Shown piece after piece: positions 11,112-18,117 of a stretch of DNA of 64,000 bases; positions within the stretch are counted from its first letter, which is position 1, and each line of letters opens with the position of its first letter. This stretch comes from Parvivirga hydrogeniphila. Lineage in GTDB: Bacteria; Actinomycetota; Coriobacteriia; Anaerosomatales; Anaerosomataceae. The position numbers and the translations under genes are program-made. Where the stretch lies: the NCBI RefSeq assembly GCF_023371205.1, contig NZ_JAMCCO010000001.1, forward strand, positions 58,662-122,661, in the 5' to 3' direction. The notes under the pieces were generated by a model. That model saw only the letters and a list, made by a program, of their open reading frames with translations. It had not been told where the DNA came from and searched no databases.

Positions 11112-12272
11112 TCATCCCTTGACGACGCCGAGCGGGGTGAGCCGGACGAGCGGCCTGACGAGATCGCGCTGCCAGGCCATCACGGACTCTATGTCCTTGT
11201 ACGCCTGCGGCGCCTCCTCGGCGACGTCGTGCTGGCGGCCCTTGGCGAGGTGCACGCCGCGACGCTCGAGGTCGCGCAGCACCTCGTCGCGCTTCAGGCG
11301 ACGCATCGCCTCCCGCCTGCCGAGCGCGCGCCCTGCACCGTGGCTGCACGACTCGAAGGAGTCCGGGTTCGCGAGACCTTCCGCGATGTAGCTCGCCGTC
11401 CCCATCGAGCCCGGGACGACCACCGTCCCGCGCGCGTGCACGGCACCCTTCCGGTGCACGATCACGTCGCGTCCGAAGTGCGTCTCCGTCGACGCGTAGT
11501 TGTGGTGCACATCCACGTCCGGCGCGAACGAGACGCTGCCGAAGCGACGTCGCAGGACGTCTCGCACCGATTCTGCGATGAGGCGCCGGTTCTCCTTGGC
11601 GAACCGCAGGCACCACCCCATCGCCGCTAGATACTCGCTGCCGACCGCGCTTCGCACGTCGAGGTGCGCGAGACCCCACTGCGGCGGCACAGGCGAGCCT
11701 TCCCGGCGATTCAGATCGCGCGCGATTGCATCGTAGTGCTCGGCCACCTGCTTGCCGACGTTGCGCGACCCGCAGTGGATCATCACCCACACGAACCCGT
11801 CGGCGTCCTGTTGCAGCTCGATGAAGTGGTTGCCGCCGCCCAGCGTCCCGGCCTGCCGCTCGGCCCTCGCCTTCTCAGCGCGCAGCACGGGCGAGTCGGG
11901 CACCTCGTCGAACACGTCGGTGCGGTGCGCTTGGCTCTCGTGGTGCCAATCGAAACCCTGGGGAACGTCGCGCATGATGGCGTGGAGCACGTCGTCGAGC
12001 ACTGGCTCCACGTCGTCGCGCTGCAGGTCCGTCTTGAACGCGCGCACCCCGCAGCCGATGTCCAGGCCCACCGCGTGCGGCACCACCTGCCCGGCGGCCG
12101 CGAACACGCCGCCGATCGGCATGCCGAAGCCCACGTGCGCGTCAGGCATGAGCGCCACGTGGTGGTGCGCGAACGGCAGGTTCGCGATGTTGCGCGCCTG
12201 CGCAAGCGTGTCGGGATCGTCGATCTCGCCCCACACGTAGATGGGGACGCGTTCGGTCGTGATGGTGCGCAC
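11112..12272 (-). CDS. RtcB-family RNA ligase
   Basis: GTG start at 12272 with AGGAGG 7 nt upstream. 386 residues, the length of the short RtcB family. Metal and guanylate-site motifs are visible: [49 protein letters not shown] and the C-terminal [10 protein letters not shown] with the guanylated His. RtcB joins 2',3'-cyclic phosphate or 3'-phosphate RNA ends to 5'-OH ends in RNA repair. It is divergent from a macrodomain gene and in tandem with dus. Confidence 0.93.
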
Positions 12273-12335
12273 CGTGCACCTCCTGGTCGGACCGCGGGTA
12301 AGTATCTACCCACAGGCGTGCGACTGGGAGGACGC

Positions 12336-12893
12336 ATGAAGCGAGCGACGCTGGACAGGATGACGGTCGTGGTCGGCGACATCACGGAGCTCGACGTCGA
12401 CGCCATCGTCAACGCCGCCAACAGCACCCTTCTCGGGGGCGGCGGCGTCGATGGGGCTATACACCGCGCCGCCGGCCCGGGGCTTCTGGAGGAGTGCCGC
12501 CTGATCGGCGGGTGCCCGACGGGCGAGGCGCGCATCACCGGCGGCCACCGCCTGAAAGCACGCTACGTCATCCACACCGTCGGACCGGTGTGGCGCGGCG
12601 GCACGCACGGCGAACGCGAGCTCCTCGAAGCGTGCTACCGCAACTCCCTTGCACTCGCGGCGAGCCGCGGCACCGAGACCGTCGCGTTCCCTGCCATCTC
12701 GACCGGAGCGTACGGGTACCCGAAGGCAGCAGCCTGCGACGCGGCGGTCGAGGCCGTGAGCGAGTGGCTGGACGAGCATGAGCTCCCTCGCCACGTCATC
12801 TTCTGCTGCTACGACGACGAGGACGCCCACCTCTACCGCGAGCGGCTGGAACGGGAAGAAGAGAGTGCCCGAGAAGAACGGAGGAGGACATGA
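12336..12893 (+). CDS. Macrodomain protein, O-acetyl-ADP-ribose deacetylase family
   Basis: ATG at 12336 preceded by GGGAGG. 185 residues. Signature elements of the MacroD/YmdB class: [34 protein letters not shown] and [12 protein letters not shown], with the catalytic-loop N and D residues kept. It would hydrolyse O-acetyl-ADP-ribose or remove ADP-ribose from proteins or nucleic acids. Divergently transcribed from the RNA ligase and overlapping the next small membrane gene by ATGA. A link to RNA-end repair is conceivable but only suggested by proximity. Confidence 0.93.
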
Positions 12894-15097: not shown

Positions 15098-15808
15098 ATG
15101 CTGACGCCGCAGGACCTGTCGCCTGGAGGCGTGGTGCAGAAGGATAGCAGGTTGCTCACACGCATGCGCGGCCGGGCCGCCGCAGCGGCCGCGCTGCTCG
15201 TCGTCGCGCTCGCGCTCGCGGGATGCGAGCCGCAGGCGGTCTGGTCGCCCGAACCGAGCGGAGGCTCAGCGGCCGCGACGCCGCCTGCCGCTGCGGTTGC
15301 GACCGCAAGCGACGAGCCGTCCCTTCCCGCGTACACAGGGGACGGCGGCGATGCCGGGATCGCTGCCGTAGAAGCGACCGAGGCGGTCGTCGTTCGCGTC
15401 GTCGACGGCGACACTGCCGTGTTCCGGCTCGCAGACGGGCGCCAGGAGAAGGTGCGCTTCATCGGGGTCGACACGCCTGAATCGACGATCGAGCACGAGC
15501 CGTACGGCGCCGAAGCGTCGGCATACACGAAGCGGCTCCTTCCGCGGGGGCGCCGCGTGTGGCTCGAGACCGACGCCGGCCTGCGCGACCGCTACGGCCG
15601 TCTCCTCGCCTACGTCTGGCTTGCGCTGCCGACCGGCGACCCGGCCCGCGAAGCGCGCAGCAAGATGCTGAACGCGCGGCTCGCGCTGGACGGGTACGCC
15701 ACGCAGATGACCGTCCCGCCGAACGTGCGCTACGCCCACGTGTTCGCCGCGTGCGTCGAAGAAGCGCGTTCGGCAGGACGCGGCCTGTGGGGGATCGAGC
15801 CGCGATGA
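15098..15808 (+). CDS. Lipoprotein with thermonuclease (SNase-like) domain
   Basis: The C-terminal two thirds are a staphylococcal-nuclease fold: VVDGDTAVFRL, GVDTPES, DRYGRLLAYVWL and a terminal AGRGLWG. The N-terminus has a lipobox (LALAGC), so the product should be membrane-anchored outside the cell and could degrade extracellular DNA or RNA. The start is uncertain: ATG 15098 is used here, but TTG 15152 (AAGG upstream) or ATG 15164 would put the signal peptide closer to the N-terminus. It overlaps the next gene by ATGA. Confidence 0.86.
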   Translation: MLTPQDLSPGGVVQKDSRLLTRMRGRAAAAAALLVVALALAGCEPQAVWSPEPSGGSAAATPPAAAVATASDEPSLPAYTGDGGDAGIAAVEATEAVVVRVVDGDTAVFRLADGRQEKVRFIGVDTPESTIEHEPYGAEASAYTKRLLPRGRRVWLETDAGLRDRYGRLLAYVWLALPTGDPAREARSKMLNARLALDGYATQMTVPPNVRYAHVFAACVEEARSAGRGLWGIEPR

Positions 15809-18117
15809 CCGCCCCGGACGCCGCCTCTGCGCGCGCGGCGAGAGCAGCCGGGCTTCTCGGAGCCGACCTCGTCGCGTGGATCCTCGATTCCGACGAGCCG
15901 GCGGCGCGTTTCGTCGCGAGGACCCGCATCCTCCATGAGCCGGAAGATTCCCCTGATGCCGCAGCCGACCGGCAGGCGAGCATCGCGACGCGGATCGTGC
16001 ACGAGCTTGTCGCGACGCTCCCTGGTTGGGCAACCGACGCGTTCGACCGCCGCGACTCGGTGCGCTACCTGCCCAACGCGCTTCGCGTGCTGCACGATCT
16101 TGGCGTGCGGACAGGCGATTTCCCCGGCGTGGACGCTGCTCTGGAGAGCCTTATCGCGCACCGTGACCGGCATGGCCGCCTCGTCAGTGTCCGGCCTGCA
16201 GACAGCGCCCGAGCGGTGCCTGCCCCGGCGCTGTGCGAATCGCATTCCGCGATCGAAGTCGCGCTGCGGTTCGGTCTTCGCGATGACGCGCGCGTCGAGC
16301 GCGCCCTCGAGCAGATGCTCATCGACATGCGCCGATCGGACTTCGGGCGCGCATGGTGCTGCGAGGCGCGTGCAGGACGCCTGCGGCTGTTCAGCTCGCG
16401 CGACTGCGAGATGTGCCCGCACGCCACCGTCCTTGCGCTTCGCGCGCTCGCCGCGCTTCCTGCATCCGAGCGGCCTGCGCTCGCCGAAGATGCCGCACGC
16501 TCGCTCCTGGCAGCGTGGCGTCGGCGCGCCGAGGCGCGTCCCAGCGGCTTCGGACACGGCTACCAGTTCGTGACCGTCCGCTGGCCGCACCTGTGGTACG
16601 ACGCGCTCGGCGTGATCGAGGCCGTCGCGCCGTTCTCGGACGTCTGGTCGGCTCGAGCCGGCGACCCTGCGAGCCGCCAGGCCGTGGTCGAGCTCGCCGC
16701 CGCGCTGATCGACGCGAACACCGACAGCAGCGGCCGCGTCGTGCCCGTGCGCGTCACGCCGGGTTTCCGCGACCTGTCGATCGGCAGGAAGGGCGAGCCC
16801 TCCCCGCTCGCAAGCGCCCTCGTGCGAGCGGCTCTCGAACCCCTCATGGAGCTCGCGGACGAGATCGCCGCCGCCGAGGTCGTCGAGTCGAAGGCGCCCG
16901 CGCGCGAGTCTGCGTCCGAGCGCGACCGATTCGCGTGTGCCGTGCTCGCACATCGCCCCGCGTACCCCTCGGCCTCCGTCATCGCTCGGCAGCTCCAGCG
17001 GCAGCACATCGGCACGCCGTGGATCCAGGCGACCCCCGAGACGCTCGTGGCAGACACCGTGGCGATTCCCGTCCTCGAACCGCGGGGGCCGTACATCGCT
17101 GCCACCGACCGTCTCGGCATCCGAGCACTGGACCAGACCGTGGAGGCGCTGTACGACCGCCGCTCGCTCGTGTTGTTCCGCTGCATGCGCGGCGTCCTGC
17201 ACGTCGTCAGGAGCGATGCGCTCCCCGTGGTCGCTGCGGCGACCGGGCGTGCGGTCCGCCACCACTCGGCGCGCTTCTTAGGATCGCGCGGCGTGAGCGC
17301 CCGCCACTACGAAATCGTCGCGGGTCAGGTGCTCGACGCGCTCGCAGAAGGGTCGCTCAGCGTGCGCGCGATCCGCGAACGGCTGCGCCCGCACGTCGAC
17401 CTGTCGGCCGTGCTCGCGCATATGTGCAACGAGGGGCTCGCGTTGCGCGACCTGCCCGAGGACGGTCCGTTCGGGCATCGGACCCGGTACGTGCGCTTCG
17501 ACCACGCGCTTCCTGGCGTGCGCCTGGACGCGCTCGACGAAGACGCGGCCGCCCGAGACCTGGTGCGGGCGTACGTCCGAGCGTACGCGCCCGTCACCGA
17601 GGCCGACGTCGCGTGGTGGACCGGCCTCGGGCCTCGACGCGCGGCCCAAGCGCTGCACGACCTCGGCGACGAGCTCGTTCTCGTCAGCGTCGAGGGCTTC
17701 GACCAGCCCGCGTTCGTCCACCTCGCCGACGCCGACGAGCTCGAATCGGCAGCCATCGCCGCACGCCCCGCTGTCGCGCTTCTCCCGGCAGGCGACGCCC
17801 TCCTCGCCTCGCGCAGGCAGCGATCGCTCTTCGTACCGGACGCCGTGCGTCGCTTCGTGTTCGACGCACGCGGACGCTCGGCTCCTGCGATCCTCGTCGA
17901 CGGCACCGTGCGCGGAGTCTGGGACCTCGCGGTTGACGGCGCCCTGCTTCTGCACGCTGCTTCTGCGCTCAGCAAAGCGGAGCGCCGCGCGGTGGAAGCG
18001 CGCGCCGAAGCGCTCACGCTGGCGTTCGGTGCGAATGGCGCCCCGAGCTGGACGTCGGACGCTCCTGAGGTCCGCGACGCTCCCCTCCACGTGCTTGCGC
18101 ACCCGCTTTCCACGTGA
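15805..18117 (+). CDS. Fusion of alpha/alpha-toroid-like domain and AlkZ-like winged-helix domain
   Basis: 770 residues. The N-terminal half (about 20-360) resembles prenyltransferase/squalene-cyclase-type alpha/alpha toroids: a HDRHGRLV-like strand, a CEMCPHATVLALRAL helix and the GYQFVTVRWPHLWYDALGVIEAV motif. The C-terminal half (about 375-770) matches winged-helix DNA-binding proteins of the AlkZ/YcaQ type (HTH_42): LGIRALDQTVEALYDRRSLVLFRCMRGVLHVV, YAPVTEADVAWWTGL, LLPAGDALLASRRQRSLFVPD and ILVDGTVRGVWDL. The catalytic Gln-x-Gln of AlkZ glycosylases is not evident where expected (IPVLEPRGP). The start overlaps the nuclease stop. Function unknown; DNA binding or repair is an inference. 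Confidence 0.75.
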   Translation: MTAPDAASARAARAAGLLGADLVAWILDSDEPAARFVARTRILHEPEDSPDAAADRQASIATRIVHELVATLPGWATDAFDRRDSVRYLPNALRVLHDLGVRTGDFPGVDAALESLIAHRDRHGRLVSVRPADSARAVPAPALCESHSAIEVALRFGLRDDARVERALEQMLIDMRRSDFGRAWCCEARAGRLRLFSSRDCEMCPHATVLALRALAALPASERPALAEDAARSLLAAWRRRAEARPSGFGHGYQFVTVRWPHLWYDALGVIEAVAPFSDVWSARAGDPASRQAVVELAAALIDANTDSSGRVVPVRVTPGFRDLSIGRKGEPSPLASALVRAALEPLMELADEIAAAEVVESKAPARESASERDRFACAVLAHRPAYPSASVIARQLQRQHIGTPWIQATPETLVADTVAIPVLEPRGPYIAATDRLGIRALDQTVEALYDRRSLVLFRCMRGVLHVVRSDALPVVAAATGRAVRHHSARFLGSRGVSARHYEIVAGQVLDALAEGSLSVRAIRERLRPHVDLSAVLAHMCNEGLALRDLPEDGPFGHRTRYVRFDHALPGVRLDALDEDAAARDLVRAYVRAYAPVTEADVAWWTGLGPRRAAQALHDLGDELVLVSVEGFDQPAFVHLADADELESAAIAARPAVALLPAGDALLASRRQRSLFVPDAVRRFVFDARGRSAPAILVDGTVRGVWDLAVDGALLLHAASALSKAERRAVEARAEALTLAFGANGAPSWTSDAPEVRDAPLHVLAHPLST

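Follow-up and report, generated by a model that had tools for sequence, protein, structure and literature searches.

The 770-amino-acid open reading frame at positions 15805..18117 (+ strand, ATG start) of the window, a 64,000-nucleotide stretch of the Parvivirga hydrogeniphila genome, is predicted by structural modeling to be a fusion of an alpha/alpha toroid with an AlkZ-type domain. We propose, with moderate confidence, that its AlkZ-type half is a DNA-binding module without catalytic function, to which a toroid with a conserved pocket of Cys, His, Trp, and Tyr residues is attached. The two folds, their single origin in trees, the loss of the catalytic motif, and purifying selection on both halves were all computed directly.

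An initial annotation of this gene described a toroid-like half followed by an AlkZ-type half, and structure prediction agrees: two separate folds, not one, were recovered, and both are confidently predicted. The AlphaFold2 (AF2) model of the whole protein, built with 19 sequences (pLDDT 82.7, pTM 0.56), features two domains and a low-confidence linker; because of the pTM of 0.56 and the weak linker, the interdomain orientation in this full-length model was left out of account. All parts lie on the + strand. The AF2 model and PDB toroid matches place the toroid at residues ~6-357 (15820..16875), the model assigns residues 358-384 (16876..16956) to the linker, and a complete AlkZ/HTH_42 fold occupies residues 385-750 (16957..18054) based on PF06224 and structure matches. 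In Pfam, PF06224 (AlkZ-like) covers residues 425-737 (E 1.2e-42; bit score 147, cut-off 25.9), and the first half of the protein has no match. The closest named record, from Coriobacteriaceae bacterium EMTCatB1, is 73% identical, and the source genome encodes a single copy of the fusion and no other AlkZ-like protein.

Over its full length, the C-terminal half matches AlkZ (PDB 5uuj; Z 34.5, 352 residues), DNA-bound AlkX (9zd6; Z 30.9), and the Lhr C-terminal domain (7lhl; Z 19.0). The PF06224 profile, three winged helices, and a beta barrel, which are the criteria for the HTH_42/AlkZ-like superfamily, are all present. The catalytic residues are a different matter. It had been noted that the Gln-x-Gln pair expected of a crosslink glycosylase is missing, and this is borne out: a profile alignment to AlkZ (5uuj) pairs the family-consensus H and T with both catalytic Gln residues, and at these positions the window protein has no QxQ but reads P422-V423-L424 and then E425 (17068..17079, + strand). 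The choice of QxQ as the reference requires correction, since the nearest relatives are AZL2 proteins with an H-x-S/T-D/E motif, which is also eroded in the fusion. Accordingly, the window fusion lacks the (Q/H)xQ pair of AZL glycosylases and the QxD pair of YcaQ/AlkX (YQL) glycosylases, with P-V-L at the aligned positions, as well as the AZL2 motif H-x-(S/T)-(D/E), in place of which it has P-V-L-E.

This loss extends across the family. H or Q at motif position 1 together with D or E at position 4 occurs in none of 22 aligned fusions and in 34 of 35 AZL2 sequences, a count that may be slightly favored by sampling because the AZL2 set (n=35) was gathered with an AZL2 query. When 359 aligned columns are ranked by lost constraint (entropy gain relative to AZL2), position 4 comes third and position 1 sixth. 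Fusions lose position 1, position 4, or both in a lineage-specific manner (PVLE, QATN, HATS, TAAD, VAPE, RTMS), and the window's genus features its own variant, P-x-(L/I)-(D/E)-P-R. One fusion, L015, reads HAQ and fits the AZL form of the motif, so single members may be active. The C-terminal half carries no net positive charge, a point against DNA binding, although net charge does not separate the fusions from their active relatives (mean of -3.1 for the C-terminal half versus -2.5 for AZL2). For reference, the AZL2 motif is HPhi(S/T)(D/E), the AZL2 of S. caeruleatus excises 7mG (PMC9040887), and 7mG excision by YcaQ is abolished by alanine at either catalytic residue (PMC7367128). The C-terminal half of the fusion has, most likely, lost its glycosylase activity.

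The N-terminal half, when modeled alone, yields an AF2 prediction of a ring of inner and outer helices with pLDDT 91.8 and pTM 0.92. Compared with the PDB, it matches a range of alpha/alpha toroids that are tied at Z 12-14 (squalene-hopene cyclase, drimenyl diphosphate synthase, MstE, and complement thioester domains), with squalene-hopene cyclase and drimenyl-PP synthase at Z about 14. When the N-domain profile was searched directly against PDB sequences, no match reached significance, and the sequence link to the toroid clan runs through distant standalone homologs that score above the SQHop_cyclase_C cut-off. Two toroid-type motifs highlighted in the initial annotation, CPHATVLALRAL (residues 204-215) and HLWYDALGVIEAV (residues 262-274), each fall at the start of an inner helix in the predicted toroid. 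None of the 19 fusions tested has a DxDD acid motif within residues 1-365, and the QW repeat is absent from the N-terminal half of the fusions; the domain is therefore not recognizable as a terpene cyclase despite its fold.

What the toroid does have is a set of cavity residues (16234..16599, + strand) that do not vary across the fusions and closely related standalone toroids. They comprise Cys144 (16234-16236), Cys186 (16360-16362), Cys204 (16414-16416), His251 (16555-16557), and Trp264-Tyr265 (16594-16599), all on the + strand. In the toroid model, invariant Cys144, Cys204, Trp264-Tyr265, and Ser333 sit at or near inner-helix starts, with Cys186 and His251 alongside. Cys144 and Cys204, which the model places on successive inner helices, at or close to where each begins, co-vary: both are Cys in 31 of 35 sequences and both are Ser in the other four. 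Protein prenyltransferases hold their zinc ligands (Asp/Cys/His) at inner-helix starts in an arrangement that resembles the Cys/His set here. By analogy, we hypothesize that this set is a putative metal site.

The fusion is not a local oddity. Instead, a genome survey identified an order-wide family, carried by 24 of 69 genomes of the order (two of them as assembly fragments only). Another eight of the 69 genomes encode only the toroid, and two (G034 and G035) harbor a second, standalone toroid copy besides the fusion. Within a phylum sample of 396 genomes, fusions were recovered only from the window's genus, and strong toroid matches outside that genus were standalone within the fetched flanks. 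The C-domain tree groups all fusions in one clade (100/100) that is sister to the AZL2 clade (100/99; joint clade 100/98), with the QxQ proteins outside; the window fusion is thus not nested within AZL2. Likewise, the N-domain tree recovers a fusion clade (99/99) and places standalone toroids outside, including those from other families of the phylum, with the sole exception of G038. Both trees place the window's genus on a long branch. The C-terminal tail of standalone toroids, SSKGGSGTPxPP, recurs in the linker of most fusions other than the window protein, which marks the junction. Given the single origin in trees, the toroid appears to have been joined to the AlkZ-type domain once, within this Coriobacteriia order, whose members are mostly uncultured actinobacteria. 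Pairwise dN/dS, estimated by a simple counting method, ranges from 0.08-0.30 for the N-terminal half and 0.10-0.38 for the C-terminal half, indicating that purifying selection maintains both.

Some loci depart from this architecture. In G038 (L149/L021, G038:C37:21433-22737), an in-frame deletion has removed most of the AlkZ domain, and a single reading frame now encodes the toroid followed by the final ~63 AlkZ residues; this is one secondary loss within the fusion clade. A fusion match in another genome (G043:C92:6164-7559; covering the toroid and the first part of the AlkZ domain) and a toroid match in a third (G402:C208) are split over several frames, through either decay or assembly errors. 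Separately, standalone toroids of ~330-350 aa (L051-L066) form a wider Actinomycetota family related to squalene-hopene cyclase profiles; the searches made found no function for them.

Gene neighborhood offers little guidance. Directly upstream of the fusion is a gene for an SNase-family, thermonuclease-like lipoprotein with an AGC lipobox (15098..15808, + strand), the stop of which overlaps the fusion's start codon as ATGA. The same gene is directly upstream in three of three congeners (four species of the genus including the window's), two of which share the ATGA junction; among the remaining loci examined, whether fusion or standalone, none has an adjacent SNase gene. The translational coupling to a secreted nuclease proposed earlier therefore holds at the level of the overlap and fails as a family-wide trait; because the adjacency is limited to one genus, a functional nuclease link was rejected for the family and the partner gives no general clue. 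Across the families examined, the fusion has no recurrent neighbor. A downstream LysR / histidine kinase / MsrB / ArgZ-like stretch, part of which is also present in G035 and G013, was rejected as a functional operon since it fits vertical descent. Anti-phage defense was also set aside (no meaningful PADLOC match; best E 0.018), as was plasmid carriage (a single weak hit, to the AlkZ half). Elsewhere in the window, an RtcB RNA ligase gene (11112-12272, - strand) lies divergent from an open reading frame (~12290-12893, + strand) with a macrodomain-like sequence (ADP-ribose-binding). In the literature searched, no paper was found that pairs HTH_42 with a toroid.

We suggest that a single joining event placed the toroid in front of an AlkZ glycosylase domain of AZL2 type and that this domain afterwards lost its known catalytic pair. 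Judging from the fold, the AlkZ half would now most likely only bind DNA, as plain or damaged duplex, via its three-winged-helix cradle, and the toroid half would perform the specific work at DNA by binding a small ligand or partner or by catalyzing a reaction. Retention of the fused gene by selection despite the loss of catalytic residues suggests that an old repair enzyme serves as a DNA-binding part. The DNA-binding sensor or repair scaffold envisioned in the initial annotation is a putative role compatible with these data. Confidence in this pseudo-glycosylase reading is held down mainly by Lhr: the C-terminal domain of E. coli Lhr is AlkZ-like and lacks QxQ, yet it removes uracil using Asp-1536 (PMC10953399). 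By this precedent, the fusion could still be a DNA glycosylase with a similarly rearranged active site, in which the toroid aids lesion recognition or partner recruitment. The retained AlkZ fold and selection are in keeping with activity, as is Asp417, just N-terminal of the old motif and invariant in fusions; however, Asp417 is also present in part of AZL2 and the motif positions vary by lineage with no single replacement motif, and we regard an active glycosylase as unlikely.

Alternatively, the protein may be a ligand-responsive transcription regulator, with an isoprenoid-like or other small molecule bound by the toroid and operator DNA bound by the winged helices. Winged helices are common in regulators and hydrophobic ligands are common in toroid folds such as the SHC, MstE, and drimenyl-PP synthase matches, but there is no conserved adjoining target gene or operon, the neighbors differ between families, and to our knowledge the AlkZ cradle is not a sequence-specific binder; this role is distinctly unlikely. 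If the AlkZ half were instead a structural or oligomerization remnant, the functional protein would be the toroid alone. Eight genomes have the toroid only in standalone form and two have it as a second copy, G038 keeps its toroid although most of its AlkZ domain is gone, and M. smegmatis Lhr has an HTH_42 domain that tetramerizes and thereby covers its putative DNA surface (PMC9040887); yet the complete fold is kept and purifying selection on the C-terminal half is similar to that on the N-terminal half, making a mere remnant very unlikely. Finally, we give only the slightest credence to a reading in which a retired glycosylase keeps hold of damaged DNA and the toroid, through a metal-thiolate site (Cys144/Cys186/Cys204/His251), catalyzes alkyl transfer or adduct chemistry; if true, this would make the protein a DNA repair or modification enzyme of an undescribed kind, built on a terpene-cyclase-type fold.

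If the non-catalytic DNA-binding reading is right, the AlkZ/HTH_42 superfamily would gain, next to Lhr, a branch that is linked to a toroid and eroded at its catalytic site. The fusions would then offer a natural case in which to ask whether the AlkZ winged-helix cradle can take on a new role as a simple binder of DNA or of lesions. The association with a DNA-repair fold would also be a clue to the function of the standalone toroid family.

Relative to known systems, the N-terminal half shares its alpha/alpha toroid fold with squalene-hopene and other class II terpene cyclases (Z about 13-14), which feature DxDD and QW where the fusions have the conserved Cys144/Cys186/Cys204/His251 cavity. 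AZL2, the sister clade of the C-terminal half, has the full AlkZ fold and the LLPALDP and DVAWWTG stretches in common with it, whereas the fusions lack the catalytic pair (22 of 22 aligned), carry a toroid in front, and occur in only one order among the sampled genomes. AlkZ (QxQ) and AlkX/YcaQ (QxD) likewise have the three winged helices and beta barrel of the C-terminal half; the fusion has neither pair, and the QxQ proteins, the sole AlkZ/AlkX type in the tree, are more distant from it than AZL2. The Lhr C-terminal domain, like the fusion, is an AlkZ-type fold without QxQ in a multidomain protein, but its partner is a helicase rather than a toroid, and uracil glycosylase activity has been shown for Lhr of E. 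coli.
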